Origin: Paracoccus sediminis
Lineage (GTDB): Bacteria; Pseudomonadota; Alphaproteobacteria; Rhodobacterales; Rhodobacteraceae
Length of the DNA stretch: 64,000 bases
Reading direction: 5' to 3'
Assembly (NCBI RefSeq): GCF_900188295.1
Contig: NZ_FZNM01000002.1
Coordinates: forward strand, 186,001 to 250,000
Below, in pieces: positions 13,946-29,560 of the stretch (position 1 is the stretch's first letter; each line of letters opens with the position of its first letter). The position numbers were made by a program, and so were the translations under genes. Under the pieces are notes generated by a model. It was given only the letters and a program-made list of their open reading frames with translations. It was not told where the DNA came from and searched no databases.

Positions 13946-14449
13946 AGACGGCCCTGTGGAACGGCGCCTGGACATCCCGGATCCTCGGCCAGCCGGTCGT
14001 TGAGACTGTACGCCCAGATCGTTTTTCCGGTGTGCCGCCCACAGGATCGAGGTCCACGGACCCTGCAATCCTGCCGCGCGGGCGGACGCCGCGCGAATGC
14101 CGAGGCGTCGATCTGGTTTGGGGCGGCGGCCGCACCGGCAGGCGCCGCGGCGTTGAAACCGTTCTGAAAGGCCAGCCTGATCCCGGCCCGCCGGCCGGAT
14201 CGGGGAGTTGCGCGGCAAGGAACGCGGCATCCTGAACGATCCTCATGCGGAAGCTTGTCCAGAACGCTGGCAATGCCGGCGCATCCGAGCCGAACTGCCG
14301 CGGCGGGGACAGGTCAGCGAACGGCCAGGCGGCCCTCATGCCTACCCGCCGCATCATTCGTCTTGCAGGAACGAAAGCGCATTGCAGCTTTTGCAGGCCT
14401 AAAGTATTCTTCATGTCGACAAAAGGTTTTTGACGTATTGGAAACGGCG
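13946..14449. other. Intergenic stretch without recognisable gene
   Basis: About 500 bases between tpa and the GntR regulator hold no frame with family features on either strand. The GC-rich part to about 14400 could be remnant coding sequence, but nothing was identifiable. The last 50 bases turn AT-rich and carry the regulator's probable promoter and a TGTCGACA palindrome. Confidence 0.4.
14414..14421. promoter_or_regulatory. Probable GntR operator upstream of its own gene
   Basis: The palindrome TGTCGACA lies 29 bases before the regulator start, within an AT-rich promoter-like region. The same core occurs as TTGTCGACAA just upstream of the deaminase gene. GntR/FCD regulators commonly bind short palindromes of this kind; the assignment is inference. 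Confidence 0.5.
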
Positions 14450-15148
14450 ATGCTGGAAACCGAACCTGTCCCCGAACGCCGCCGCGGTTCGGGGGTCAAG
14501 ATGGTCTACGATCAGTTGCGCGACGAAATTCTGGATCTGGTTCTGCTGCCCGGCAGCCTGATCGACGAGGTGCAGCTTGCCGAACGTTTCGGCATGTCAC
14601 GCACACCGATCCGAGAGGCCCTGGTCCGCCTTTCCAGCGAAGGCCTGGTCGAGACCTTGCCAAATCGCTCGACCATGGTCGCCAACATCGATTTCCTGAA
14701 TCTTCATACCTTTTTCGATGCCCTGACGCTGATGTATCGCGTCACCACGCGCCTCGCGGCCCAACACCACCGGCCCGAGGATCTGGTCATTCTGCGCGAT
14801 CATCAGCGCCGCTATGCCGACGCCGTCGGCGCCCAAGACGCCTTGGCGATGATTTCCACGAACCGCGCCTTTCATGCCGCCATCGCCGAGGCCGGGCGCA
14901 ATCCCTATTATACCAGCCTGTTCCTGCGGCTGCTGGACGATGGGCGAAGACTTCTGCGTCTCTATTACCAATCCTTCTCCGATCAGCTGCCGCGTGAATA
15001 CGTGGACGAACACGAGGCCATCATTTCGGCGATCGAAGCCCATGACATCCCGCTGTGCGACCGGTTGGCGGCAAAACACGCCGATCAGATCGTGCACCAG
15101 ATTCAGCGGTTCCTGGCACGGGACCAGCGTCAGCAGATCCAACTCTAG
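14450..15148 (+). CDS. hypR: GntR-family (FCD) transcriptional regulator of the hydroxyproline cluster
   Basis: The 232-residue protein has an N-terminal winged helix (VYDQLRDEILDLVLLPGSLI then EVQLAERFGMSRTPIREALV at residues 20-60) and a C-terminal all-helical FCD ligand-binding domain with Asp and His residues placed for metal or carboxylate binding (NRAFHAAIAEAGRNPYY, DEHEAIISAIEAHD). It is the first gene of the cluster and sits 103 bases before the deaminase gene, matching the position of HypR in Sinorhizobium meliloti. A longer open frame begins at 14255 but the start at 14450 gives the family length and follows the promoter-like region. The inducer is presumably hydroxyproline or a catabolite. 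Confidence 0.8.
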   Translation: MLETEPVPERRRGSGVKMVYDQLRDEILDLVLLPGSLIDEVQLAERFGMSRTPIREALVRLSSEGLVETLPNRSTMVANIDFLNLHTFFDALTLMYRVTTRLAAQHHRPEDLVILRDHQRRYADAVGAQDALAMISTNRAFHAAIAEAGRNPYYTSLFLRLLDDGRRLLRLYYQSFSDQLPREYVDEHEAIISAIEAHDIPLCDRLAAKHADQIVHQIQRFLARDQRQQIQL

Positions 15149-15175: not shown

Positions 15176-15251
15176 ATAAAATGCAATCCTTAAGATGCCG
15201 ATCACGAGAATCGGCATTTTAATCACCTCTGCCATCGACACGAGGATCGCG

Positions 15252-16214
15252 ATGAACATCGACATATTCACGGGCGTCATTCCGGCGCTGATGACCCCCT
15301 GCAACGCCGACCGCAGCCCGGATCACGACGCCCTGGTCCGCAAGGGACAGGAACTGATCGCGGCAGGAATGTCGGCGGTGGTTTACTGCGGTTCGATGGG
15401 CGACTGGCCGCTGCTGACCGACGAACAGCGGATGGAAGGTGTCGCACGGCTTGTTGCGGCGGGGATCCCGGTGATTGTGGGAACGGGCGCGGTGAACTCG
15501 GCGTCGGCCGTGGCGCATGCCGCACATGCTCGGAAGGTGGGCGCCGCCGGCTTGATGGTGATTCCGCGGGTTCTGTCGCGCGGCCTTTCCGCCACGGCGC
15601 AGCGCAACCATTTCAAGGCCATCCTGGCTGCCGCGCCCGACACTCCGGCGGTCATCTACAACAGCCCCTATTACGGGTTTGAAACCAAAGCCGATCTTTT
15701 CTTTGCCCTGCGTGCCGAGCACCCGAACCTGGTGGGCTTCAAGGAATTCGGCGGCGCGAAGGCCATGACCTATGCCGCCGAGCATATCACGAGCGCCGAC
15801 GACGGCGTGGTGCTGATGGCGGGCGTCGATACGGGCGTCTATCACGGTTATGTCAGATGCGGCGCCATCGGGACCATCACCGGGATCGGCAACGTCATCC
15901 CCAAAGAGGTCCTGCACTTTGTCGCCCTGGCCAAGGCGGCGGCCGCAGGGGATCTGGATGCCCGTACCCGCGCCCAGGAACTGGGCGAAGCACTGGAGGT
16001 GCTGTCGTCGTGGGACGAAGGAACCGATCTGGTGCTGTACTACAAGCACATGATGGTCTTGCAGGGGAATCCGGAATACGCCCTGCACTTCAACGAGACG
16101 GACGAACTGACGCCCAGCCAGCGCGGTTGGGCCGAACGGCAACTGGCGCAGTTCAAGGCCTGGTATGGTGCATGGAGCGCGCTGCCCGGCGCCGTGCAGG
16201 CCTGCAAGATGTGA
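15252..16214 (+). CDS. hypD: 1-Pyrroline-4-hydroxy-2-carboxylate deaminase (DapA family)
   Basis: This aldolase-fold enzyme should deaminate 1-pyrroline-4-hydroxy-2-carboxylate to 2-oxoglutarate semialdehyde in trans-4-hydroxyproline breakdown. The 320-residue protein has the TIM-barrel DapA features: YCGSMGDWPLLTDEQR at 45-60, Tyr140-Tyr141 in YNSPYYGF, and the Schiff-base lysine Lys164 in VGFKEFGGA. The segments GSMGDWPLL and IPRVLSRG agree with hydroxyproline-cluster deaminases rather than with dihydrodipicolinate synthase. The start at 15252 follows GAGGA; an upstream start at 15195 is less likely. A strong terminator follows. The enzyme next in the pathway (2-oxoglutarate semialdehyde dehydrogenase) is not in the window. 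Confidence 0.85.
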   Translation: MNIDIFTGVIPALMTPCNADRSPDHDALVRKGQELIAAGMSAVVYCGSMGDWPLLTDEQRMEGVARLVAAGIPVIVGTGAVNSASAVAHAAHARKVGAAGLMVIPRVLSRGLSATAQRNHFKAILAAAPDTPAVIYNSPYYGFETKADLFFALRAEHPNLVGFKEFGGAKAMTYAAEHITSADDGVVLMAGVDTGVYHGYVRCGAIGTITGIGNVIPKEVLHFVALAKAAAAGDLDARTRAQELGEALEVLSSWDEGTDLVLYYKHMMVLQGNPEYALHFNETDELTPSQRGWAERQLAQFKAWYGAWSALPGAVQACKM

Positions 16215-16261: not shown

Positions 16262-17293
16262 TCAGCGGATCGCGTCCAGTCCTCGGGCCATCAGGTGGTC
16301 AAGCTGCGCGCTTTCGGCGTCGGAAAGGACGATACCGTCGGCATTGGCCTTGTCCCTGGCGGCAAAACGACGCTGCGACGGCAGGCGCGCGCCTTGGCCC
16401 TGGATCGCCTGGAACAGCCGTTCCGCTCGTGCAAACGGGTTTCCGGGTCGTCCCGCGGCAAACTGATCGGGCGAAAGAGCCAGGATCAATTCCCCATGGA
16501 AGGGGGCCAGGGCCGTGGTGCCCAGATAGTCCAGAACCTCGGGACTGGTCAGATCCCCGATCATGATTCCCGCCAGCAGTTCGATCATCGTGCCGATGGC
16601 CGAACCCTTGTGGCCCCCGAACGGCATCATGGCCCCGGCCAGGGCGGCTTGCGGGTCTGTCGTGGGCCGGCCCGCCTCGTCCATGGCCCATCCTTCGGGC
16701 AGGGGCTTTCCGGCACGGCGGTGCAATTCGATCTCGCCCCGCGCTGCGACCGAGGTGGCGAAATCGAACACATAGGGATGACGACCGGGCCGGGGCCAAC
16801 CGAAGGCCATCGGGTTTGTCCCAAGCAGGGGACGGTTGCCTCCGGCCGGCGCGACGGTGGCATAGCTGGGGCACATCACCAGCGCGGCCAGACCGTGTTC
16901 CGTCAGGGCTTCGACCTCGGGCCACAGGGCGGCAAAATGCGTGCAGTCATTGACCACCATGGCCGCCAGCCCCAGTTCGGCGGCACGTTCCACAAGCAGG
17001 GGCAAGCCGCGGTCGAAGGCCGCATTGGAAAACCCGCCGCGGGCGTCCACGCGGACAATGGCGCCGTTGCCGGCAGGATGGGCCACCGGATCGGCATCGC
17101 CCCGGACCTTTCCGGCCTCAAGGGTCCGCAGCACACCCTCGATCCTGTAGATGCCATGGGATTTGCAGCCGTCCCGTTCACCCGCGACGATGACGCGCGC
17201 CAGGGGCGCCGCCTGGCCAAGGCTCATTCCTGCCGCAAGAAAGATTTGCTCGACCTGCCGGGACAGGTCTTCGACTGAAATGGCGTGTGTCAT
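16262..17293 (-). CDS. hypS: Ldh_2-family ketimine reductase (delta1-pyrroline-2-carboxylate reductase-like), copy 1
   Basis: The protein (343 residues from the ATG; a GTG one codon upstream is also possible) belongs to the malate/L-lactate dehydrogenase type 2 family, NAD(P)H enzymes distinct from Rossmann lactate dehydrogenases. Family marks are ERDGCKSHGIYRIEG near 40, NDCTHFAALW (the catalytic His region) near 116, LLGTNPMAFGWPR near 156, FDFATSVAARGEI and PFGGHKGSAIG. Members in hydroxyproline clusters reduce delta1-pyrroline-2-carboxylate to L-proline. It is transcribed away from the ABC importer. GGAAGGA precedes the ATG. A paralogue sits at 25691. The symbol follows the S. meliloti naming and is tentative. 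Confidence 0.75.
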   Translation of the reverse strand: MTHAISVEDLSRQVEQIFLAAGMSLGQAAPLARVIVAGERDGCKSHGIYRIEGVLRTLEAGKVRGDADPVAHPAGNGAIVRVDARGGFSNAAFDRGLPLLVERAAELGLAAMVVNDCTHFAALWPEVEALTEHGLAALVMCPSYATVAPAGGNRPLLGTNPMAFGWPRPGRHPYVFDFATSVAARGEIELHRRAGKPLPEGWAMDEAGRPTTDPQAALAGAMMPFGGHKGSAIGTMIELLAGIMIGDLTSPEVLDYLGTTALAPFHGELILALSPDQFAAGRPGNPFARAERLFQAIQGQGARLPSQRRFAARDKANADGIVLSDAESAQLDHLMARGLDAIR

Positions 17294-17325
17294 CACCGCA
17301 TCCTTCCGCTGGGCTATATTTCTGC

Positions 17326-17550: not shown

Positions 17551-18360
17551 ATGACGAAAACGACATTTGCATTCGGTTTGCTTGCGGCCACCGTCGCCAT
17601 GGCGGCGCCGTCCCATGCCGACAAACTGGACGACATCATCGCCTCGGGCACGCTGCGCTGCGCGGTCGTGCTGGACTTTCCTCCGATGGGGATGCGCGAC
17701 GAAAGCAACAACCCCGTCGGCTTCGACGTCGATTATTGCAACGATCTTGCCGCCGCGCTGGGCGTGACGGCCGAGATCGTCGAGACACCTTTCCCGGAAC
17801 GCATCCCGGCGCTGATGTCGGGCCGTGTTGATGTGGGCGTCGCCTCGACCTCGGACACGCTGGAACGCGCCAAGACGGTCGGCATGTCGATTCCCTATTT
17901 CGCCTTCGAGATGGTGGTGACCGCGAATGACGCCGCGGGCATAACCTCGTTCGAGGGAATGAAGGGCAAGACCGTGGGCGCCACCGCTGGCACCTTCGAG
18001 GCCATTGCGCTGGAAAAGCAGGTCACCGAATGGGGCGAGGGCACCTTCCGCCCCTACCAGACCCAGGCCGACGTGTTCCTGGCGCTGAGCCAGGGCCAGA
18101 TCGACGCGACCGTATCCACCTCGACCGTGGCGCAGGCCAATGTCAAAAGTGGCAATTTTCCCGGCATCGCGGTCGCGGGCAGCGCGCCCTTTGACATCGA
18201 TTACGTCGCGCTGTTCACCAACCGCGAGGAATACGGGCTGCTGAACTATCTGAACCTGTTCGTGAACCAGCAGGTCCGCACCGGCCGTTATGCCGAACTG
18301 TATGAAAAATGGGTCGGCGGCGATCTGCCCAGCCTGACGGTCGACAACGTTTATCGCTGA
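17551..18360 (+). CDS. hypM: Amino-acid ABC transporter substrate-binding protein (probably hydroxyproline)
   Basis: This 269-residue periplasmic protein has a signal peptide (MTKTTFAFGLLAATVAMAAP, cleavage probably after SHA at 23) and a type 3 solute-binding fold: LDDIIASGTLRCAVVLDFPP, GFDVDYCNDLAAALGV, and GRVDVGVASTSDTLERAKTV. It is followed by two permeases and an ATPase, then the oxidase and epimerase of hydroxyproline breakdown, matching the hypMNPQ-O-RE order of S. meliloti. Hydroxyproline is therefore the likely ligand; that is context, not binding-site evidence. The start has AGGAG upstream. Confidence 0.82.
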   Translation: MTKTTFAFGLLAATVAMAAPSHADKLDDIIASGTLRCAVVLDFPPMGMRDESNNPVGFDVDYCNDLAAALGVTAEIVETPFPERIPALMSGRVDVGVASTSDTLERAKTVGMSIPYFAFEMVVTANDAAGITSFEGMKGKTVGATAGTFEAIALEKQVTEWGEGTFRPYQTQADVFLALSQGQIDATVSTSTVAQANVKSGNFPGIAVAGSAPFDIDYVALFTNREEYGLLNYLNLFVNQQVRTGRYAELYEKWVGGDLPSLTVDNVYR

Positions 18361-18366
18361 CGACCG

Positions 18367-18393
18367 GGGGCGGCGCGGCACGCGCACCGCCCC
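18367..18393 (+). terminator. Stem-loop between binding protein and permease genes
   Basis: GGGGCGG (18367-18373) pairs with CCGCCCC (18387-18393); an inner CGCG/CGCG pairing can extend it. Such hairpins after binding-protein genes often stabilise the upstream message or reduce transcription into the permease genes, allowing excess binding protein. Confidence 0.5.
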
Positions 18394-18421
18394 ACGCTTT
18401 CCGGCTATCGCAGGACGGCCC

Positions 18422-19087
18422 ATGTTCAACTATACCTTTCAATGGAAGCAGGCGCTGGCCCGGCTTCCGCAGATGCTGGACGGCGCGCTTGTCACCATGC
18501 AGATCGCCCTTTTGTCGATGGCGATCGGGATCCTGCTGGCGATCGTGCTGACCATGTTCCGCCTGTCGGGGATCCGCGTGCTGTCGGCCATCGCCCGCAC
18601 CTGGGTCGAGATCGCGCGCAACACCCCGGCCCTGTTCCAGATCTACATGGCGCATTTCGGGCTGGGCAGTTTCGGCATCTACCTGTCGCCCTTTGCGTCG
18701 ATCTTGCTGGGGATCACCTTCAACAACGCGGGCTATCTGACCGAGAATTTCCGGGGCGCGCTGAAGGCCATCCCCGACACCCAGGCCCGCGCGGCGCGGT
18801 CGCTGGGCTTTCCGCAGGCGGGGGCCTTTCGATACGTCGTGCTGCCGCAAATGCTGCGGATCGCGTTCTTGCCGATGACCAACCAGATGGTCTGGGCGAT
18901 CCTGATGACCTCGCTGGGGGTCACGGTCGGCATGAACAGCGATCTGTATGGCGTCACCCAGGATCTGAACGCGCTGACCTTCCGCACATTCGAACTGTTC
19001 GCCCTGGCCGCCGTGATCTTCTATGTCATCACCAAGGCCATCACTCTGGGGGCGCGGCTGATCGCCGCCCGCCTGTTCCGGTATTGA
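18422..19087 (+). CDS. hypN: Amino-acid ABC transporter permease 1
   Basis: The 221-residue inner-membrane protein is a polar amino-acid (HisM/GlnP-type) permease. It has about five hydrophobic helices and the cytoplasmic coupling motif with the ATPase, ARAARSLGFPQAGAFRYVVLPQ around residues 123-144. The N-terminal TMQIALLSMAIGILLAIVLT helix is typical. It follows the binding protein after a stem-loop and is 12 bases before its paralogue, with which it forms the heterodimeric channel. Confidence 0.85.
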   Translation: MFNYTFQWKQALARLPQMLDGALVTMQIALLSMAIGILLAIVLTMFRLSGIRVLSAIARTWVEIARNTPALFQIYMAHFGLGSFGIYLSPFASILLGITFNNAGYLTENFRGALKAIPDTQARAARSLGFPQAGAFRYVVLPQMLRIAFLPMTNQMVWAILMTSLGVTVGMNSDLYGVTQDLNALTFRTFELFALAAVIFYVITKAITLGARLIAARLFRY

Positions 19088-19099
19088 AGGGGGCTGGCC

Positions 19100-19753
19100 A
19101 TGTTCGACACCGCGCTGACCTCCGCCGATTTCGCCTTTCTGGCCCGCGGCGCGGGCGTGACGATCCTGGTCACGCTGATCGCGGTCATTGCCGGGACCGT
19201 GCTGGGCATCGTCTTCGGCGTCTTTCGCTATCAGGTCGGCCCCCTCTGGGCGGCGCCGCTGACCTTCGTTCTGGACGTGTTCCGGTCGATCCCGCTCTTG
19301 ATCCAGCTGGTGCTGGCCAATGCCTTTCTGGGCACCATCCTGCGGCTGAACCTGTCGGGCTTCACGGTGGCCTGCATCATCCTGTCGCTGTACACGGCCG
19401 CGTTCTGTTCGGAAATCGTGCGCGGAGGAATCGAGGCCGTGCCGATGACCACCCGCCGCGCGGCGCGGTCGCTGGGCATGAGCTGGGGCCAGGACATGTG
19501 GTCCATCGTGCTGCCGCTGGCCACGCGCGTGGCCCTGCCGTCCTGGATCGGGCTGGCGCTGGGGGTGATGAAGGATTCCGCGCTAGTCTATATCGTGCAG
19601 GTGACGGAACTGCTGAAATCGACGCAGATCCTCATCACCCGGTTGCAGGAACCGCTGCTGTTGCTGCTGATCTGCGGCGCCTTCTACTTCGTCATCTCGT
19701 TCCCGCTGGCCCGGCTGGGCGGCTATCTGGAAAAACGGTGGTCCCATGATTGA
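19100..19753 (+). CDS. hypP: Amino-acid ABC transporter permease 2
   Basis: This 217-residue protein is the second HisM/GlnP-type permease. The EAA-type coupling loop is MTTRRAARSLGMSWGQDMWS near residues 115-134, and hydrophobic helices flank it on both sides. It begins 12 bases after the first permease and overlaps the ATPase gene by 8 bases, so the channel and motor are probably translated in step. Confidence 0.85.
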   Translation: MFDTALTSADFAFLARGAGVTILVTLIAVIAGTVLGIVFGVFRYQVGPLWAAPLTFVLDVFRSIPLLIQLVLANAFLGTILRLNLSGFTVACIILSLYTAAFCSEIVRGGIEAVPMTTRRAARSLGMSWGQDMWSIVLPLATRVALPSWIGLALGVMKDSALVYIVQVTELLKSTQILITRLQEPLLLLLICGAFYFVISFPLARLGGYLEKRWSHD

Positions 19754-20468
19754 GATTGAAAACGTCCGCAAGTCCTTCGGGACGCTGGAAGTCCTCAAGG
19801 GCATCGACCTGACCGTCCAGAAGGGCGAGGTGGTGACGGTCATCGGCGGGTCGGGGTCGGGAAAATCGACCCTGCTGACCTGCATCAACGGGCTGGAGCC
19901 GATTGATTCCGGGCGCATCCTGGTGGACGGGACCGAGGTTCACGCCAAGGCCACCGACCTGAACAGGCTGCGCCGCAAGATCGGCATCGTCTTTCAGCAG
20001 TTCAATGCCTTTCCGCACCTGACCGTGCTGGAAAACGTGATGCTGGCCCAGGTCAAGGTTCTCAAGCGGCCCAAGGCCGAAGCCGAGGCCGAGGCCGTCA
20101 AGCAACTGAACCACGTGGGGCTGGGCGACAAGCTGGCGGTCTATCCCTCGCGCCTGTCGGGCGGCCAGCAACAGCGCATGGCGATCGCCCGCGCATTGGC
20201 CATGTCGCCCGGCTACATGCTGTTCGACGAGGTGACGTCGGCCCTGGATCCGCAACTAGTGGGCGAGGTTCTGGACACGCTGCGGATGCTGGCCCGCGAG
20301 GGGATGACGATGATCTGCGTCACCCACGAGATGAAATTCGCGCGCGAGGTGTCCGACCGCGTGGCGTTCTTCCACAAGGGGGTCATGGCCGAGATCGCGC
20401 CTCCCGACCATTTGTTCGGCGCGCCAAGGGATCCCGAATTGCAGAAATTCCTGTCGGCCACGCACTGA
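19746..20468 (+). CDS. hypQ: Amino-acid ABC transporter ATP-binding protein
   Basis: The 240-residue ATPase powers the importer. Walker A is GGSGSGKST near residues 37-45, the Q-loop IVFQQFNAFPHLTVLENV, the signature LSGGQQQR near 138, Walker B MLFDEVTSALDP, and the switch His in CVTHEMKF. Size and motifs match GlnQ/HisP-type subunits. The next gene starts one base after its stop. Confidence 0.9.
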   Translation: MIEIENVRKSFGTLEVLKGIDLTVQKGEVVTVIGGSGSGKSTLLTCINGLEPIDSGRILVDGTEVHAKATDLNRLRRKIGIVFQQFNAFPHLTVLENVMLAQVKVLKRPKAEAEAEAVKQLNHVGLGDKLAVYPSRLSGGQQQRMAIARALAMSPGYMLFDEVTSALDPQLVGEVLDTLRMLAREGMTMICVTHEMKFAREVSDRVAFFHKGVMAEIAPPDHLFGAPRDPELQKFLSATH

Positions 20469-20469
20469 G

Positions 20470-21705
20470 ATGGCCACGCGGGACGTGATCGTCATCGGCG
20501 CGGGCGTGGTCGGCCTGTCCGCCGCCCTGGCGTTGCGGGCGCGCGGCGTTCCGGTCACGGTGATCGACCGCGAAGGCCCCGCCGCAGGCGCTTCGGCCGG
20601 GAACGCGGGGGCCTTTGCCTTTACCGACATCCTGCCGCTGGCCTCGCCCGGAATCATGAAAAAGGCGCCCCGCTGGCTGCTGGACCCGCTGGGACCGCTG
20701 TCGGTGCCGCCCGCCTATGCGCTGCGGATCGCGCCGTGGATGTGGCGGTTCTGGCGGGCCTGTTCGCCTGCGCGGGTGGCGGAATCGACGCGCGGCCAGA
20801 CCGCGCTGATGGATCTGTCCAAGGTGGAATTGGAACCCTTTCTGGAGGCCACCGGAACGCAGGCGATGCTGCGCAAGGATGGCAACCTTCAGGTCTATGA
20901 AGGGCAGGCGGAATTCGACGCGTCCCTGCCGGGCTGGCAGGCGCGGGCCGACCACGGCATCGCCTTCCGCCACCTGACGCCTGAGGAGATGACCGAAATC
21001 CAGCCCGGCCTGTCGCCGCGCTTCAAGCGCGGCACCTTCACGCCGGGCTGGTATTCCATCGCCGACCCGCGCGATTACACCCTGGCGCTTGCCGAACGGT
21101 TCCGCGCGAATGGCGGCAGGATCGTCATCGCCGAGGCGACCGGGCTGACCGAGGACGGCGTCGTCACCGCCAACGGGCCGATGAAGGGCCGGGTGGTGCT
21201 GGCGGCGGGGGCGTTTTCCCACCGGCTGGCGCGGACGCTGGGCGTGCGGATCCCGCTGGAAACCGAACGGGGCTACAACACCACGCTGCCCACGGACGCC
21301 TTTGACCTGCGCTGCCAGGTGACGTTCGGCGGGCACGGCTTCGTCGTGTCGCGGCTGTCGTCGGGCATCCGCGTCGGCGGGGCGGTGGAACTGGGCGGGC
21401 TGGACCTGCCGCCGAATTTCAAACGGTCCCAGGCGATGCTGGACAAGGCCGCCGCCTTCCTGCCCGGCCTGCGCACCTTTGGCGGGACGCAATGGATGGG
21501 GTTCCGCCCGTCCCTGCCCGACAGCCTGCCCGCCATCGGCCCGCTGCCCGGCCATCCGAACGTGACCTGCGCCTTCGGCCATGGCCATCTGGGCCTGACC
21601 CAATCGGCGGGCACCGCGCGGATCGTGGCCGATCTTGCGACCGGCGCCCCGCCCCCCATCGACCTTGCGCCCTTTTCCCCGGCGCGCTTCGGAAAACGGA
21701 CATGA
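20470..21705 (+). CDS. hypO: FAD-dependent D-hydroxyproline oxidase/dehydrogenase (DadA-like)
   Basis: The 411-residue enzyme should oxidise cis-4-hydroxy-D-proline to 1-pyrroline-4-hydroxy-2-carboxylate. The dinucleotide-binding motif VIVIGAGVVGLSAALAL occupies residues 6-22, with the usual DAO-family segments GNAGAFAFTD, ETERGYNTTL and a C-terminal GHGHLGLTQSAGTARIVADL that closes the FAD site. It has no signal peptide. It lies between the importer ATPase (1-base gap) and the epimerase (ATGA overlap), the order seen in hydroxyproline clusters. D-proline or other D-amino acids are possible substrates. Confidence 0.85.
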   Translation: MATRDVIVIGAGVVGLSAALALRARGVPVTVIDREGPAAGASAGNAGAFAFTDILPLASPGIMKKAPRWLLDPLGPLSVPPAYALRIAPWMWRFWRACSPARVAESTRGQTALMDLSKVELEPFLEATGTQAMLRKDGNLQVYEGQAEFDASLPGWQARADHGIAFRHLTPEEMTEIQPGLSPRFKRGTFTPGWYSIADPRDYTLALAERFRANGGRIVIAEATGLTEDGVVTANGPMKGRVVLAAGAFSHRLARTLGVRIPLETERGYNTTLPTDAFDLRCQVTFGGHGFVVSRLSSGIRVGGAVELGGLDLPPNFKRSQAMLDKAAAFLPGLRTFGGTQWMGFRPSLPDSLPAIGPLPGHPNVTCAFGHGHLGLTQSAGTARIVADLATGAPPPIDLAPFSPARFGKRT

Positions 21706-22706
21706 CCCAATACATCTTTCCCTGCATCGACGGCCACACCTGCGGCAACCCCGTCCGTCTTGTCGCGGGCGGCGCCCCCCGGCTGGAGGGCGCCGACATG
21801 CTGGAAAGGCGCGCCCATTTCCTGCGCGACTTTGACTGGATCCGCACCGGCCTGATGTTCGAACCGCGCGGCCACGACATGATGTCGGGCGCGATCCTGT
21901 ATCCCCCCACGCGGCCCGATTGCGACGTGGCGGTGCTGTATATCGAAACCTCGGGCTGTTTGCCGATGTGCGGCCACGGCACCATCGGCACCATCACCAT
22001 GGGAATCGAGAACGGCCTGATCCTGCCCCGCACCCCCGGCCGCCTGTCCATCGAGACGCCCGCCGGCAAGGTGGACATCGAATACCGCCAGGACGGCCGC
22101 TTTGTCGAGGAAGTGCGCCTGACGAACGTGCCGGGCTTCCTTCACGCCGAGGGCCTGACCGCGCGGGTCGAGGGGCTGGGAGAGATCGTCGTGGATGTGG
22201 CCTATGGCGGCAATTTCTATGCCATCGTCGAACCGCAGGCGAATTTCCGCGACATGGCGGACCATACAGCGGGCGAGCTGATCGGCTGGTCACTGACGCT
22301 GCGCGCGGCGCTGAACGCGAAATACGATTTCGTCCATCCCGAACATCCCGCGATCAACGGGCTGTCGCACATCCTGTGGACCGGCCGGCCGACCCGACCG
22401 GGCGCCCATGCGCGCAACGCGGTCTTTTACGGCGACAAGGCCATCGACCGGTCGCCCTGCGGCACCGGAACATCGGCCCGGATGGCGCAGTTGGCGGCCA
22501 GGGGCGCGCTGGCCGTGGGCGACGAATTCCATCACGAATCCATCATCGGCAGCATCTTCAAGGGCCGTGTCGAGGCCGCGACGACCGTGGCGGACCGCCC
22601 GGCCATCATCCCGTCCATCGCCGGATGGGCCCGCCAGACCGGCCTCAACACCATCTTCATCGACGCCGACCGCGATCCCTTCGCCCACGGCTTTGTGGTC
22701 CGATAG
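21702..22706 (+). CDS. hypRE: 4-Hydroxyproline 2-epimerase (proline racemase family)
   Basis: The enzyme inverts C2 of trans-4-hydroxy-L-proline to give cis-4-hydroxy-D-proline. The 334-residue protein keeps both catalytic cysteines of the family: Cys90 in MCGHGTIG and Cys253 in DRSPCGTGTSAR, with His92 and Asp249 as helpers. Two catalytic Cys mark a racemase or epimerase rather than a dehydratase. The start at 21702 overlaps the oxidase stop, giving tight coupling of successive pathway steps. Compare the homologue at 26766, where both Cys are replaced. Confidence 0.9.
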   Translation: MTQYIFPCIDGHTCGNPVRLVAGGAPRLEGADMLERRAHFLRDFDWIRTGLMFEPRGHDMMSGAILYPPTRPDCDVAVLYIETSGCLPMCGHGTIGTITMGIENGLILPRTPGRLSIETPAGKVDIEYRQDGRFVEEVRLTNVPGFLHAEGLTARVEGLGEIVVDVAYGGNFYAIVEPQANFRDMADHTAGELIGWSLTLRAALNAKYDFVHPEHPAINGLSHILWTGRPTRPGAHARNAVFYGDKAIDRSPCGTGTSARMAQLAARGALAVGDEFHHESIIGSIFKGRVEAATTVADRPAIIPSIAGWARQTGLNTIFIDADRDPFAHGFVVR

Positions 22707-22743: not shown

Positions 22744-22788
22744 ATGCCCATGACCGACCCCTGCGCCGCCAGCCGGTGCTGTCCGTGA
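22744..22788 (+). CDS. 14-residue leader ORF or frameshifted start of the TRAP small subunit
   Basis: An ATG with a good AGGAG six bases upstream opens a 14-codon frame (MPMTDPCAASRCCP). Its TGA overlaps the GTG start of the TRAP small subunit (GTGA). It may act as a coupling leader. Alternatively one extra C in the CCCC run near 22760 has shifted the true start: removing it would give MPMTDPLRRQPVLSVIRLSE in frame with the transporter gene. Confidence 0.35.
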   Translation: MPMTDPCAASRCCP

Positions 22789-23354
22789 TCCGGCTGTCGG
22801 AAAGCCTGCTGGCCGTCGAGCAGGTCGCCGTGGCCGTCCTGATGACGCTGCTCAGCGGCGCCATCCTGTTGAACGTCATGACCCGGTACCTGGGGATGCC
22901 GCTTTACTGGATCGACGAATTCGCGGTCTATTGCATGGTCTGGATGACCTTCATCGGCGCCTCCACCATGGCCCGGCTGCGGCTGGATTTCGCGGTCACG
23001 ATGCTGACCGGACGGCTGTCCCCGCGGACCGCGCGCGCGGCGCAGGTGGCGGCCACGCTGACCGTGGTGCTGTTTGCCCTGTCCCTCGCGGTCATGTGCT
23101 GGCTGTGGTTCGATCCGCTGGGCCTGGCGCAAGCAGGCTTTGACGGGCAGGCCTTCGCGGGCCGGACCTTCAACTTCATCTATACCGAACGCACGCAGAC
23201 GCTGAACTGGTCCACCTGGGTTCTCTATCTGATCCTGCCGATCTTCGCGCTGTCGATGATCGTTCACGGGATCGCCAACCTGCTCGAGGATACCGGCGCC
23301 GCGCCGCGCGTTCAGCGCACGGCGATGATGAACGCGGACGAGGCGGTGAACTGA
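22785..23354 (+). CDS. TRAP transporter small membrane subunit (DctQ type)
   Basis: This protein of about 189 residues has four hydrophobic helices and the DctQ-type signatures LLNVMTRYLGMPLYWIDEFA and MVWMTFIGASTMAR. It partners the large subunit in a sodium- or proton-driven importer with a periplasmic binding protein. The start is uncertain: GTG codons at 22776 and 22785 are in frame, and the strong ribosome site upstream belongs to a different frame (see the leader entry). Its stop shares one base with the next start (TGATG). Confidence 0.8.
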   Translation: MIRLSESLLAVEQVAVAVLMTLLSGAILLNVMTRYLGMPLYWIDEFAVYCMVWMTFIGASTMARLRLDFAVTMLTGRLSPRTARAAQVAATLTVVLFALSLAVMCWLWFDPLGLAQAGFDGQAFAGRTFNFIYTERTQTLNWSTWVLYLILPIFALSMIVHGIANLLEDTGAAPRVQRTAMMNADEAVN

Positions 23355-24622
23355 TGCTGACCTCTGCCGCCTTTCTGGCCGTGATGCTGGTGGGGGTTCC
23401 CATCGGGCTGTGCCTTTGCGTGGCCGCCATCGCTTTCGTCCTGACCAGCGGCAACCCGATCTTGTTTCAAAGCTATCCGTTGCAGATGTTCAACGCGGTC
23501 GACAGCTATGGGCTGATCGCCATTCCGCTGTTCATCCTCATCGGCGAGCTGATGAACGCGGGCGGCATCACCGCGCGGATCGTGGCGATGGCGATGGCGT
23601 TCGTCGGATCGCTGCGCGGCGGCCTGGCCTATGTGAACGTGATCGCGAACATGTTCGTGGCCTCGATCCTGGGTTCGGCCACGGCGCAGGTCGCGATCAT
23701 GTCCCAGATCATGGTTCCCGAAATGGAACGGAAGGGCTATGACAAGGATTTCGCGGCCGGTCTGACCGCCTATGGCGGCATGTTGGGATCGATCATGCCG
23801 CCCTCGGTCATGTTCGTGGTCTACAGCGTGATGGCGCAGGTATCGGTGTCGGACATGCTGATGGCGGGACTGGTGCCCGGCATTCTGCTGACCGCGCTGT
23901 TCTGCATCGTGACCGCCATCATCGGCCATCGCCAGACATTCCCGCGCAGTGCGCCCCAGACCCTGCGCCAGCGTGCGGCAACCGTCTGGGCCGCGGTGCC
24001 GTCGCTGGCGATCCCCGTCGTCATCGTCGGCTCGATTTTCACCGGCCTTGCCAGCGCGACCGAGGCGGGGGCCATCGGCGCGGTCATGTCGCTGTTCGTC
24101 GGCCGGTTCTGGACCCGTCAACTGTCCTTGGCCGAACTGCCCCGGATCATGACCCGCGCAGGCCTGTATTCGGCGATCGTGCTGTTCCTGGTCGTCGCGG
24201 CCGGGGTGCTGTCATGGATACTGGTGTTCGGGCAGGTGCCGCAGCGGGTCGCAGGCTGGATCCAGGGCGTCGCCGGGAATCCGGTCGTCTTCATGCTGCT
24301 GGTCAACGTGATCCTGCTGGTCATCGGCACCGTGATCGACGGCATTCCCGGCCTCATCATGACCGTGCCCATCCTGCTGCCCATCGCGACCGAGGTGTAT
24401 GGCATCGACCCGCATCATTTCGGAGTGGTGGTCGTCATCAACCTGGTGCTGGGACTGCTATCGCCCCCGGTGGGATTGTGCTTCTTTGTCGCGGCGGCGG
24501 CGACCGGCGCCAATCCGGGGCGGATGTTCTTGATTACGATGCCTTTTTTCCTGATTTCCTCCGTCCTGCTGGCGATCCTGTCGGTCTTTCCCGCCCTTTC
24601 TCTTATTCTCGTCGGCCCTTAG
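23354..24622 (+). CDS. TRAP transporter large permease subunit (DctM type)
   Basis: The 422-residue protein is the transport channel of the TRAP system, with about twelve hydrophobic helices. Typical DctM sequences are seen: FILIGELMNAGGITARIV near residues 62-79, FVASILGSATAQVAIMSQIM and LTAYGGMLGSIMPPSVMF. It overlaps the small subunit by one base and is followed 25 bases later by the binding protein. A second importer within one catabolic operon suggests a second substrate. Confidence 0.9.
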   Translation: MLTSAAFLAVMLVGVPIGLCLCVAAIAFVLTSGNPILFQSYPLQMFNAVDSYGLIAIPLFILIGELMNAGGITARIVAMAMAFVGSLRGGLAYVNVIANMFVASILGSATAQVAIMSQIMVPEMERKGYDKDFAAGLTAYGGMLGSIMPPSVMFVVYSVMAQVSVSDMLMAGLVPGILLTALFCIVTAIIGHRQTFPRSAPQTLRQRAATVWAAVPSLAIPVVIVGSIFTGLASATEAGAIGAVMSLFVGRFWTRQLSLAELPRIMTRAGLYSAIVLFLVVAAGVLSWILVFGQVPQRVAGWIQGVAGNPVVFMLLVNVILLVIGTVIDGIPGLIMTVPILLPIATEVYGIDPHHFGVVVVINLVLGLLSPPVGLCFFVAAAATGANPGRMFLITMPFFLISSVLLAILSVFPALSLILVGP

Positions 24623-24647
24623 AAACCATCCACACAGGAGCCTCGCC

Positions 24648-25634
24648 ATGCCGAAACTGTCCCGTCGCCATCTTCTTGCCGGTGTCGCCGCCCTGCCGCT
24701 GGCGGCGCCGGTGATTGCACGCGCCCAGACCCGACAGCTGCGCCTTGGCGTCATCACGCCCGTGGGCCATTCCTGGAACGACGCGGCGATACGGCTGGGC
24801 GAGGTGCTGTCCCAGCAGACTGACGGGCGGCTGACGGTCGGCGTCTTTCCTTCGGGGCAGTTGGGCAACGAACCCGCCATGATGCAGCAGTTGCAGTCGG
24901 GCGCCTTGGACATGGGCATCATCCAGGCCGCCGAACTGGGATCGCGCGTGGACCACATCGCCGCGATCAACGCCCCCTACCTCGTGCGCTCGACCGAGGC
25001 GGTGGCCAGGCTGGTCCGTCATCCCGCGGTGTTGAAACTGTTCGACGTTCTGCCCCCGCAGACGGGCACGATCGGCCTTGGCTGGGCGATCACCGGGATG
25101 CGGGCCGTCTTTGCGGTCGATCCCATCGACAGCATCGCCGGGCTGAACGGGATGAAGCTTCGCATCAACCCCACCCCGGTCTTTCGCGATTTCTATCAGT
25201 CGCTGGGCGCCGCGTCGACGCCGATCTCCACCCCGCAGGTTTTCGACGCGATGTCGAACGGGCAAGTCGATGGACTCGAGGCGGATATCGAATTTTCGTG
25301 GAACCAGCGGTTCGACAAGGTGGCCAAGTCGATCCTGCGCATGAACGCCGTGTTCATGCCGGCCGCCGCCGTCGCCTCGGGCCGGGTCTGGGCCGCGCTC
25401 CCCCCCAAGGACCAGGAGGTCATCGCCGCCTCGGTCAGGACCGTTCTGGACGAGCAGATCGACAGCCTTGTGAGCGAGGAGCCTGCCCTGATCGAGAATT
25501 TCCGCGCGACCGGCATCGCCATGCACGACATCCCGGTCGAGGACACCACCGCGATCGTCACCGAGTTCGACCGGATATGGCTGCCCAAGGCCCCGGTGAT
25601 CGAACAGTTGCGCGCCATCGGCGCAACGCTGTGA
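24648..25634 (+). CDS. TRAP transporter substrate-binding protein (DctP type)
   Basis: The 328-residue periplasmic protein starts with a twin-arginine-like signal (MPKLSRRHLLAGVAALPLAA, cleavage near ARA at 25), so it may be exported folded. The DctP fold is shown by VGVFPSGQLGNEPAMMQQLQ, MRINPTP-like KLRINPTPVFRDF (with the carboxylate-binding Arg) and DGLEADIEFSWNQRFDKVAK. The ligand is probably a carboxylate. Its neighbours (reductase, racemase homologue, aconitase X) suggest a hydroxyproline isomer or cyclic imino acid. Confidence 0.85.
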   Translation: MPKLSRRHLLAGVAALPLAAPVIARAQTRQLRLGVITPVGHSWNDAAIRLGEVLSQQTDGRLTVGVFPSGQLGNEPAMMQQLQSGALDMGIIQAAELGSRVDHIAAINAPYLVRSTEAVARLVRHPAVLKLFDVLPPQTGTIGLGWAITGMRAVFAVDPIDSIAGLNGMKLRINPTPVFRDFYQSLGAASTPISTPQVFDAMSNGQVDGLEADIEFSWNQRFDKVAKSILRMNAVFMPAAAVASGRVWAALPPKDQEVIAASVRTVLDEQIDSLVSEEPALIENFRATGIAMHDIPVEDTTAIVTEFDRIWLPKAPVIEQLRAIGATL

Positions 25635-25690
25635 TCGACGGCGCCACGCCTGCCTGCGGGTTGTCGGAGGCAGGCCCCCGAGAGTCCCCC

Positions 25691-26698
25691 ATGGACCAGG
25701 CCCGCACCCTGATGCCCTCCGAGATACGCGATCTGGTCGTCTCGGTCCTGGCAGCCAATGGCCTTGGGGACGAGGCCGCGCAGGCGGTTGCCGATGTGGT
25801 TGCCCGCGCCGAAGCGGACGATTGCCGCTCTCATGGTCTCTACCGGGTCGAGGGGTATGTCGCCGCGCTGCGGTCGGGCCGGGTCAACCCGGCGGCCCAG
25901 CCCTGTCTGCACCGCCTGAAACCCGCTCTGGTGCGGGTCGACGGCGACCGCGGCTTCGCGCCCCATGCCGCCGACATCGCCCGTCCGCATCTGGTCGCCG
26001 CCGCGCGGGCAAACGGCATCGCCGCGCTGGCGATCACGAACACCCATCACTTTTCGGCGTTGTGGGCCGATCTGGAACGCCTGGCCGAGGCCGGTCTGGT
26101 TGCCTGGGGCTTTGTCGTCGGCCAATGCGCGGTGGCGCCGCATGGCGGGACCGCGCCGCTGATGGGAACCAACCCCATCGCCTTCTGCTGGCCTCGCCCC
26201 GATGGGCTGCCCTTCGTCTTCGACCTTGCCACAAGTGCTGCCGCGCGCGGCGAAGTCGAACTGCGCCGCCTTGCGGGCGAGACCCTGCCCGAGGGATGGG
26301 CAATCGACGCGCAGGGTGCCCCCACCGCCGATCCGGGCGCGGCGCTTTCGGGCGCCCTGCTGCTGTTCGGCGGCCACAAGGGATCGGCCCTGTCGATGAT
26401 GGTCGAACTGATCGCAGGCCCGCTGATCGGCGAGATGACCAGCCGACAGGTGGCCGCCCTGGGCCAGGACGACGGCGGTCCGCCGCCGGGGGGGCAGCTG
26501 ATCCTGGCCGTCGATCCGTCCTCGGTCAGTTCCGGGGCGCTGAGGGCGGGCGAGGGCTTTTTTGCCGATGCGGCCGCGCAGCCGGGACTCAGGCTGCCGT
26601 CGGACCGGCGCTACGCCGCCCGTGCCCGCAGCGCCGCCACGGGCGTCCGGGTGCCATGCGTCCTCTTGGACCGGATCCGCGCCCTGCGCAGCGCATGA
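25691..26698 (+). CDS. Ldh_2-family ketimine reductase (delta1-pyrroline-2-carboxylate reductase-like), copy 2
   Basis: This 335-residue paralogue of the gene at 16262 shares its family marks: RAEADDCRSHGLYRVEGYV near residue 40, NTHHFSALW with the catalytic His, LMGTNPIAFCWPRPD, FDLATSAAARGEVEL and FGGHKGSA. It should use NAD(P)H to reduce a cyclic imine such as delta1-pyrroline-2-carboxylate to L-proline. It lies between the TRAP binding protein and the racemase homologue and aconitase X, exactly the enzymes whose family members produce that imine. The ribosome site before 25691 is weak; an upstream GTG at 25631 is in frame. Confidence 0.75.
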   Translation: MDQARTLMPSEIRDLVVSVLAANGLGDEAAQAVADVVARAEADDCRSHGLYRVEGYVAALRSGRVNPAAQPCLHRLKPALVRVDGDRGFAPHAADIARPHLVAAARANGIAALAITNTHHFSALWADLERLAEAGLVAWGFVVGQCAVAPHGGTAPLMGTNPIAFCWPRPDGLPFVFDLATSAAARGEVELRRLAGETLPEGWAIDAQGAPTADPGAALSGALLLFGGHKGSALSMMVELIAGPLIGEMTSRQVAALGQDDGGPPPGGQLILAVDPSSVSSGALRAGEGFFADAAAQPGLRLPSDRRYAARARSAATGVRVPCVLLDRIRALRSA

Positions 26699-26765: not shown

Positions 26766-27806
26766 ATGCGTTCGAAACTGTCCATCTCCGTGATCGGCTG
26801 CCATGCCGAGGGCGAGATCGGCGATGTCATCGTCGGCGGCGTGCTGCCCCCCGAAGGGGCCACCATGATGGACCGGATGATCGCCATGCAGCGCGATCAC
26901 GACCATATCCGGCGCCTGCTGATCTGCGAGCCGCGCGGATCGGTCGCGCGCCACATCAACCTCATCACGCCGCCGGTCACACCCGGCTGCGTGGCGGGCG
27001 CCATCGTCATGGAGCCGACCGAATACGTTCCCATGTCCGGATCGAACACCATCTGCATCGCCACCGTTCTGCTGGAAACCGGCATGGTTCCCATGCGGGA
27101 ACCCGTGACCCGCTTCAGCCTGGACATGCCCGGCGGTGTGATCGAGGTCGCGGCGGAATGCGCGGACGGCAAGTGCCGGTCGGTCACCTTCCGCAACGCC
27201 CCCGCCTTTGTCGCCGTGCTGGACGGCGCGCTCGAGGTCGAGGGGCATGGCACCATCCCGCTGGACATCGCCTATGGCGGGATGTTCTTCGGCATCGTCG
27301 ACGCGCAGGCCCTTGGTTTCCGGATTCGCCCCGATGAGGCGCGCGATCTTGCTGTTCTTGGCGAAAAAATCCGCAAGGCCGCCCGCGAACAGTTCGATGT
27401 GGCTCATCCCGATTTCCCGAACGTCCGCGGCGTGTCCATCGTGCAATTTGCCATGCCGTTTCCGGGCGCGGGGCAGGTCGCGCGCAACACATGCATCGTG
27501 GCGCCCGGCCGGTCGGACCGTTCGCCCACGGGGACCGGCACCTCGGCCCGCATGGCGGTGTTGCAGGCGCGCGGGCTGATGGGGCAGGGCGACGCGCTGA
27601 TCCACGAATCGATCATCGGGTCGCGTTTCACCGGCCGGATCGTCGAGGTGCGGAACGTGGGCGGGCGCACCAGCATCGTTCCCCAGATCACCGGCCGCGC
27701 CTGGATCACTGGCCAGCACAGCTACTACCTCGATCCCGACGACCCCTGGCAGGCGGGCTACATGCTGTCCGACACCTGGGGCGTGACGCCCGCCCTGACC
27801 CAATGA
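26766..27806 (+). CDS. Proline-racemase-family protein with Ser/Thr in place of both catalytic Cys (possible 3-hydroxyproline dehydratase)
   Basis: The 346-residue protein has the proline racemase fold throughout ([41 protein letters not shown]). The first catalytic Cys and its following His are replaced: the motif reads MSGSNTI with Ser91 and Ser93. The second catalytic Cys is Thr255 in SPTGTG. Known trans-3-hydroxyproline dehydratases of this family keep one Cys and have Thr at the second site; a Ser/Thr pair is incompatible with two-base racemisation and less well described. Context (reductase before, aconitase X after, ATGA overlap) points to dehydration of a hydroxyproline. A regulatory or other lyase role is possible. 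Confidence 0.75.
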
Positions 27807-29560
27807 GCGCCCGCGCCATGGCCCAGGACGACCTGATGACCCCGACCGCCCTGTCCGTCCTGCCCGGCACCGCCGAAGGACCGGTCCTGGCCACGACCGA
27901 GCCGCTGAGCTTCTGGGGCGGCGTCGATCCCGCGACGGGCCGGATCATCGACGTCCACCACCCGCTGCATGGCCGCAGTGTCACCGGCTGCATCCTGATG
28001 ATGCCCTCGACCCGCGGATCCTGCACGGGGTCGGGCGTGCTTCTGGATCTGGTCCTGTCGGGACGCGGGCCGGCCGCGCTGATCTTTTCCGAACCCGAGG
28101 ACGTGGTGACTCTGGGCGCGCTGATCGCGGCCGAGATGTTCGACGCCCGGCTGCCCGTGCTGCGGCTGTCGCCAGAGGCCTTTCGCGCCCTGACCCGTCA
28201 GGATGCCGCCCGGATCCGCCGGGACCGTATCGAGGCGGGGCCCGTCTCGATCCCTTTGAATCCGCCCGCGACCGGGACGCTGGATCTGACCGCCGCCGAC
28301 CATGCCCTGCTAGCGGGCGATGCGGGCGTGGCCGCCGCGCAGGCGATGCGGATCATCTGCGCGATGGCCGCCCAACAGGGCGCGACGCGGCTGGTGGACG
28401 TGACCCAGGCGCATATCGACGGCTGCATCTATGCCAGCCCGGCAAATCTGACCTTTGCCGAACGAATGGCCTGCCTGGGCGCCAAGGTCATCGTGCCCAC
28501 GACGATGAACGCCATCTCGGTCGATCATGACAACTGGCGTCGGCAAGGCGTTCCCCCCAGCTTCGGCGGTCCTGCGCAACGGCTGGCCGATGCCTATGTC
28601 CGCATGGGTTGCCGCGCCACCTTCACCTGTGCGCCCTATCTGCTGGACAGCGCCCCGGCGCAGGGCGAAACGATCGCCTGGGCGGAATCGAACGCGGTCA
28701 TCTATGCCAACAGCGTCCTGGGCGCGCGCACGGCCAAGCATCCCGATTTCCTGGACCTCTGCATCGCGATGACCGGCCGGGCGCCGCTGTCGGGGGTTTA
28801 TCTGGACGAACACCGGCTGGCGCGCCGGATCATCGACGTGGACCTTCCCGACGGGGTGGATGACGCGTTCTGGCCCCTGATCGGCTATCTTGCCGGAAAG
28901 CTTTCGCCCGACCGTATCCCGTTTGTGCGCGGCCTGGACGCGGCCATGCCGGGAACGGACGACCTGAAGGCGCTTTGTGCGGCGTTTGGAACCACGTCGG
29001 CGGCCCCCATGCTGCATGTGGACCGAATCACGCCAGAGGCGGGGCGGATCGGCGCCGGCGCCGACCGTTGCCGCATCACCCTGGAGGACATGAGGCTTGG
29101 CTGGCGACTGCTCAACGAAAGCTCTGAAAACATAGACCTCGTTGCCTTGGGCAGCCCCCATGCGTCGCTGAACGAATGCCGCCTGCTGGCCGACAGGCTG
29201 AAGGGACGCAAGGTTCTGATACCCACCATCCTGACCACCGGCCGCGAAACCGTGACGCGGGCGCGTGCCGAGGGGACGTTGGCCCTGCTGGAGGAGGCTG
29301 GCGTGCAGATCATTCCCGATCTGTGCTGGTGCTCGATCTCGCGGCCGGTATTTCCCGTCGAGACCCGCACGTTGATGACGAATTCGGGCAAGTACGCCCA
29401 TTATGGTCCGGGCCTGTCAGGCTGTGCCGTCAGGTTCGGGAACCTGGAGCACTGCGTCGACGCGGCCGTGACGGGACGGGCGGGCACCGGGTTGCCGGAT
29501 TGGCTTTGCAAAACGACGCCGGAAAAGGACATGGCTCCACGGCCTGACGGCATGTCCTGA
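27803..29560 (+). CDS. Aconitase X, single-chain (swivel and catalytic domains fused)
   Basis: Aconitase X enzymes include cis-3-hydroxy-L-proline dehydratase, which yields delta1-pyrroline-2-carboxylate. This 585-residue protein fuses the small swivel domain (about residues 45-150: [20 protein letters not shown] then [12 protein letters not shown]) to the large catalytic domain (about 160-565: [40 protein letters not shown] with Cys508 and Cys510, and [13 protein letters not shown] at 525-537). The conserved Cys residues are the likely iron-sulfur ligands. In many organisms the two domains are separate genes. The start at 27803 overlaps the preceding stop (ATGA). It ends the 12-kb operon. 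Substrate is inferred from family and context. Confidence 0.85.

Follow-up and report, generated by a model that had tools for sequence, protein, structure and literature searches.

What does a proline-racemase homologue do once both of its catalytic cysteines have been replaced? The question is raised by an open reading frame (ORF) on the forward strand, at positions 26766-27806, of a 64,000-nucleotide stretch of Paracoccus sediminis DNA, hereafter the window (assembly GCF_900188295.1, contig NZ_FZNM01000002.1, positions 186,001 to 250,000). Its translation is an intact homologue of 346 amino acids followed by a stop codon. A sequence-only reading had reported that both cysteines are replaced (Ser91 and Thr255) and Asp251 is kept, and translation and alignment agree: the first catalytic site reads MSGSNTI, with Ser91 and Asn94, and the second DRSPTGTG, with Asp251 and Thr255 (numbering checked). 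The protein is probably a Ser/Thr-type (Type II) trans-3-hydroxy-L-proline dehydratase (t3HypD). The direct basis of this prediction is the sequence, the predicted fold, the invariance of Ser91, Asn94, Asp251 and Thr255 in the clade of the protein, and the neighbouring genes.

The Pfam model Pro_racemase (PF05544) matches residues 9-332 with 440 bits against a gathering score of 27, which places the protein in the superfamily. The eight best homologue matches, the window protein counted, align over residues 1-346, which supports the ATG at 26766 as the start codon. Where two-cysteine proline racemases and 4-hydroxyproline 2-epimerases (4HypE) have Cys at both catalytic positions, the window protein has Ser91 and Thr255; the first-position Cys of the Cys/Thr (Type I) t3HypDs is likewise Ser91 here. 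With the model NF045511, which we take to describe the Cys/Thr type, the protein scored 248 bits, the cut-off being 540. Alignments were built only from homologue matches inside fetched loci, numbered here with the letter L. In the first of them, made without L001, L002, L003 and matches shorter than 250 amino acids, all 23 rows at 64-100% identity (the window protein and some duplicates counted) carry the Ser/Thr pair. As all 20 rows of the de-duplicated clade described below carry it too, a sequencing error does not explain the pair.

The Ser/Thr substitution is not new: it has been on record for about ten years, with crystal structures and an assay. The three best sequence matches in the PDB, 4K8L, 1TM0 and 4K7G, all combine MSGSN with SPTGTG, and the window protein shares with them the Type II residues Ser91, Asn94 and Thr255. 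4K7G is protein B9K4G4 of Agrobacterium vitis, which was assayed as a t3HypD in 2014 in a study of 51 superfamily proteins (Zhao et al., PMC4113996); one sentence in the Results of that paper gives one A. vitis protein the accession of another, and the legend of its Figure 5 and its t3HypD section are followed here. For B9K4G4, that paper describes Ser90 as catalytic, Asn93 as positioning Ser90, and Thr256 as having a non-catalytic orientation. Proteins of the Ser-Thr type were functionally annotated as T3LHypD, Type II, in 2015 (PMC4364671), Type I being the Cys/Thr form (PMC4113996, PMC4364671). Homologues with this pair thus already have a defined activity (4K7G/B9K4G4; Type II), the very finding that the sequence-only reading had named as its refutation. 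Its guess of a Ser/Thr lyase subgroup was right, but the subgroup has a structure, an assay and a name; its statement that dehydratases of the family keep Cys with Thr holds for Type I and fails for Type II. Judged by its relatives, the window protein is most likely an ordinary member of this known kind, a dehydratase.

The AlphaFold2 model of the window protein, computed with 24 aligned sequences, has a mean pLDDT of 88.9. Its top structural match is 4K7G (Z 50.3, root-mean-square deviation 1.6 Å over 340 residues, VIA-align), which is also first in Foldseek; the predicted model thus has the overall structure like 4K7G that is expected of Type II. Helices 92-104 and 256-268 of the model start right after Ser91 and Thr255, and this is the arrangement described for the family active site, in which the carboxylate is held between two helix N-termini (PMC4113996). 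The activity cannot be read from the fold alone, because a Ser/Cys epimerase (4LB0) and the proline racemase entries of Trypanosoma cruzi trail by 3.5-5 Z units. The former, 4-hydroxyproline epimerase B9JQV3, resembles the window protein in its fold (Z 46.8) and in the Ser with Asn on one face, but has Cys as the second residue, Ser at column 63 and epimerase activity (PMC4113996).

Among more distant relatives with solved structures, the Cys/Thr (Type I) t3HypDs from human (7QPO) and Thermococcus litoralis (6R76, presumably of this type) share the fold and the Thr at the second position, but have Cys as base where the window protein has Ser, and identity is 28-34%. The human residues are Cys104 and Thr273 (PMC9309405). 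Brucella 1TM0 has the same Ser/Thr pair and is 46% identical over 309 structurally aligned residues.

The neighbours of the gene in the window make up an L-hydroxyproline catabolic cluster (Table 1). MLD2, D-amino-acid oxidase (DAAO), DHDPS and transporter genes are reported in 4HypE and t3HypD gene contexts (PMC4113996), and the families neighbouring the gene are those reported for L-hydroxyproline clusters (PMC4113996, PMC5144071). Genes of the pyrroline-2-carboxylate reductase family, LDH2/MLD2, lie directly upstream and at 16262-17296; their reductase activity is predicted. None of the 25 NCBIfam models listed for the proposed oxidase (20470-21705) scored above cut-off, and no NCBIfam model did so for the proposed reductase at 25631-26698. 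The genome holds two superfamily matches, the window protein and the Cys/Cys 4HypE; the latter is 34% identical to the former and has His and Gly opposite Ser93 and Asn94.

Table 1. Features of the hydroxyproline cluster in the window and the sites of the Ser/Thr protein.
Feature	Position	Strand	Basis
GntR/FCD transcriptional regulator	14255..15148	+	Family scan
DHDPS-like protein	15195..16214	+	Pfam DHDPS, 105 bits
Second LDH2/MLD2-superfamily oxidoreductase	16262..17296	-	Pfam Ldh_2, 303 bits
ABC transporter	17551..20468	+	Pfam: substrate-binding protein 17551-18360, ATPase 19746-20468; ORFs 18422-19087 and 19100-19753 permeases by position only
FAD-dependent D-amino-acid oxidase/dehydrogenase, proposed cis-4-hydroxy-D-proline oxidase	20470..21705	+	Pfam DAO, 221 bits
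Cys/Cys 4-hydroxyproline 2-epimerase (4HypE)	21702..22706	+	NCBIfam NF010578, 588 bits (cut-off 376); MCGHGTI, SPCGTG
TRAP transporter DctQ, DctM, DctP	22776..25634	+	Family scan
LDH2/MLD2-superfamily oxidoreductase, proposed delta1-pyrroline-2-carboxylate reductase	25631..26698 (alternative start 25691)	+	Pfam Ldh_2, 306 bits; proposed function from MLD2 members assayed in PMC4113996
Window protein, Ser/Thr proline-racemase relative	26766..27806	+	Translation, Pfam, NCBIfam, PDB sequence search, alignment, predicted model
Codons 91-94, Ser91-Gly-Ser-Asn94	27036..27047	+	Ser91 as proposed catalytic base, positioned by Asn94; equivalents Ser90/Asn93 of B9K4G4, function from PMC4113996
Codons 251-255, Asp251-Arg-Ser-Pro-Thr255	27516..27530	+	Thr255 in place of second Cys; equivalent Thr256 of B9K4G4, function from PMC4113996
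Aconitase X (AcnX), LhpI-type	27803..29560	+	NCBIfam NF051439, 904 bits (cut-off 700); Pfam AcnX

The gene order varies between relatives. Four Paracoccus loci fetched with long flanks (L033, L035, L036 and L048) share the order DAAO, 4HypE, Ser/Thr protein, AcnX, with 25-295 bases between the 4HypE and Ser/Thr genes; in the window these two are separated by the TRAP genes and an LDH2 gene (22776-26698). The pairing with an LDH2 gene is not unique to the window, since in L010 such a gene (72%) directly precedes the Ser/Thr gene.

If the mechanism follows that of B9K4G4, catalysis would fall to Ser91, which Asn94 holds at the N-terminus of a helix, and not to Thr255 on the opposite face. Ser91 would take the C-alpha proton, as generally proposed by the authors of PMC4113996, and its conjugate acid would aid the departure of the 3-hydroxyl from the same face; the enamine would then tautomerise to delta1-pyrroline-2-carboxylate. 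An LDH2-type reductase would reduce this product to L-proline, and both superfamily members of the window (25631-26698 and 16262-17296) are candidates for that step. Aconitase X would deliver the same delta1-pyrroline-2-carboxylate intermediate from cis-3-hydroxy-L-proline, and trans-4-hydroxy-L-proline would be handled by the Cys/Cys epimerase, the oxidase and the DHDPS-like protein.

The position of the protein among its relatives was assessed with a 95-row alignment, from which L001, L002 and L003 (copies of window genes), L004, L007 and L008 (copies of L034, L036 and L048) and matches shorter than 300 amino acids were omitted. The tree and the topology test derived from it leave out the long-branch rows L041_P4634, L011_H487 and L079_P1501 and two trait columns, and 1TM0 is not on the tree. 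The window protein belongs to a clade of 20 rows, all Ser/Thr (support 98/91), in which Ser91, Asn94, Asp251 and Thr255 are invariant. Among the named records its sources are Paracoccus, Roseovarius, Palleronia, Rhizobium, Shinella, other Rhizobiaceae, Insolitispirillum, Mesorhizobium, Caulobacter and Sphingosinicella.

Several results weigh against assignment as a dehydratase. The clade is separate on the tree from that of 4K7G and 4K8L. The window protein (442 bits) and four further clade members (441-453 bits) all miss the equivalog cut-off of the NCBIfam model NF047722, 550 bits; the score is 626 for 4K7G and 630 (L014) and 636 (L018) for two members of its clade from the same genus, and the Ser/Cys proteins of L047 and L053 reach 445 and 492. 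At columns 173, 174 and 226, which appear to line the pocket, all 20 clade rows have Met/Phe/Val, and 32 of the 35 other Ser/Thr rows have Asp/Ser/Cys. 4K8L, from Ochrobactrum, has the same Ser/Thr pair, is 50% identical to the window protein and falls in the 4K7G clade, but its depositors listed it under 4HypE (PMC4113996), and its PDB title reads epimerase/dehydratase. The sequence similarity network (SSN) cluster of B9K4G4 is reported to be mixed for 4HypE and t3HypD, some members being promiscuous (PMC4113996). Text searches of the literature, not made by sequence, found no assay of any member of the 20-row clade.

B9K4G4 (4K7G) is accordingly a close but imperfect model: the Ser/Asn/Asp/Thr pattern, the fold (in the predicted model) and the hydroxyproline context reported for its SSN cluster (PMC4113996) are alike, but the window protein is about 50% identical, lies in a separate clade, scores lower with NF047722 and has other residues at the three columns, whose assignment to the pocket comes from the alignment only. 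His63 is common to both. This residue is present in 53 of 55 Ser/Thr rows and 10 of 27 Ser/Cys rows, and it was considered as a dehydratase marker and rejected: of seven independent pairs differing at Thr255 across well-supported branches, 6.9 on average showed no difference at His63, and none ever differed in the same direction.

Because 4K8L was filed as an epimerase, B9K4G4 belongs to a mixed SSN cluster and Thr255 has changed repeatedly on the tree, the Ser/Thr pair by itself does not fix the activity. Given 4K8L and the mixed cluster, the claim of the sequence-only reading that the protein is not a two-base epimerase is likely, but not more. Conceivably the window protein is a promiscuous 4-/3-hydroxyproline epimerase-dehydratase, in which Ser91 would act on one face, with reprotonation from the Thr255 face by water or a different group, so that both reactions would be catalysed. 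The records of 4K8L and the heterogeneity of the B9K4G4 cluster speak for it, as do the Ser/Cys protein of L047, which groups with the 20-row clade, and that of L054, which stands beside it with weak support. A gene of the aldehyde dehydrogenase family precedes the orthologues of Roseovarius, Palleronia and Insolitispirillum (L037, L040 and L043), which also have an ABC transporter and an LDH2 gene close by, and the aldehyde dehydrogenase family is tied to the 4-hydroxyproline pathway (PMC4113996). However, the window cluster already holds a dedicated Cys/Cys 4HypE, and B9K4G4, with the same pair, is reported to dehydrate with a non-catalytically oriented Thr (PMC4113996), which makes the promiscuous enzyme unlikely.

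The clade-specific pocket residues, together with the identity of about 50% to 4K7G and the scores below the curated cut-off, would also suit a lyase or isomerase that uses the same Ser mechanism on another 3-hydroxylated imino acid, such as a dihydroxyproline; in 9 of the 20 clade loci (L037-L041 and L043-L046) the fetched flanks contain no homologue of 4HypE or of AcnX. Such a substrate seems quite improbable given the standard hydroxyproline cluster around the gene in Paracoccus and the dehydratase 4K7G being the nearest structure by both methods. The dehydratase assignment is thus retained as probable, and no more firmly because of the low NF047722 scores, the differing pocket columns, a residue pair that is not decisive and the lack of an assayed clade member in the literature found.

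The association with aconitase X had suggested to the sequence-only reading a non-catalytic partner of that enzyme, with overlapping stop and start codons. An ATGA is indeed present at 27803-27806, but the use of that start is unsure: the AcnX profile match of NCBIfam begins at residue 19 of the reading from 27803, and the ATG at 27836 fits the start conserved in sister species (MTALSILPG) better. ATG 27836 may therefore be the conserved AcnX start. In L033 and L034 that start likewise overlaps the stop as ATGA, and in L035, L036 and L048 it lies 5-57 bases past the stop. Read from its ATGA, the window AcnX has 11 extra N-terminal residues compared with the conserved start of L033 and L034.

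In the Paracoccus subclade AcnX is the next gene on the same strand in 9/9 rows, and this, with the possible ATGA overlap, is what favours a partner or regulator of aconitase X without catalysis of its own. Of the 11 clade rows outside that subclade, L042 has AcnX adjacent but on the opposite strand, and ten lack it in the fetched flanks (1.5 to 6 kb). A genome search covering 18 of the 20 rows (without L033 and L035) found no AcnX (PF04412) match in four (L041, L044, L045 and L046), the completeness of which is unreported; the genome of the more distant L047 gave no match either. Each single absence is weak, because completeness is unreported for the genomes behind L037-L047. AcnX is thus not always present with the Ser/Thr gene, as an obligate partner would require. 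Furthermore, among the 22 loci L011-L032, 20 hold a Ser/Thr gene of the 4K7G clade, and AcnX adjoins such a gene in all 12 loci where it is a neighbour. Two enzymes serving one pathway would explain this pattern better than an obligate complex would. Throughout the clade the residues of the Ser/Thr active site, Ser and Asn included, are invariant, and Pseudomonas LhpI was reported to be active as a purified recombinant protein (PMC5144071). The non-catalytic partner was rejected on the invariant active site, the lack of an AcnX match in 4 of the 18 clade genomes searched and the mixed neighbourhoods, and must be regarded as extremely improbable.

The tree also bears on the history of the residue pair. 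The 95 rows comprise 55 Ser/Thr, 27 Ser/Cys, 11 Cys/Cys and 2 Cys/Gly pairs, and Asn94 is found in 82/82 Ser rows and in 0/13 Cys rows. On the tree the Ser/Thr label takes 8 changes, of which well-supported branches force at least 7. A single origin of the pair was rejected, one Ser/Thr clade being incompatible with the data by the approximately unbiased test (p-AU 1.4e-11), for a group picked after seeing a quick tree. Of the two faces, the one with Ser is fixed in the aligned set and the one with Thr or Cys is labile. It is a doubtful proposition that Thr255 of the 20-row clade arose separately from that of the 4K7G clade, from a Ser/Cys ancestor, together with a 3-hydroxylated imino acid substrate other than that of Type II.

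The 20-row clade has as its sister pair L047 and L049, records of Actinomycetota metagenome-assembled genomes, one Ser/Cys and one Ser/Thr; their placement hints at transfer between phyla. The two Cys/Gly genes (L041:4634-5644 and L011:487-1479) each adjoin a Ser-type paralogue. L076, from a genome of the same class as the window, holds three family genes in tandem (matches from 453, 1501 and 2553), with Ser/Thr, Ser/Cys and Ser/Thr.

Losing both cysteines in the proline-racemase family does not mean losing function, and a likely function can now be assigned to genes named 'proline racemase family protein' in plasmid records. The modest new point is evolutionary, namely a constant Ser/Asn and a repeatedly changing Thr/Cys. 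With Ser/Asn constant in all Ser rows and the opposite residue labile, these proteins form a series for testing whether one residue controls dehydratase versus epimerase activity, and the tandem triplet of L076 offers a natural test of the role of the second residue.
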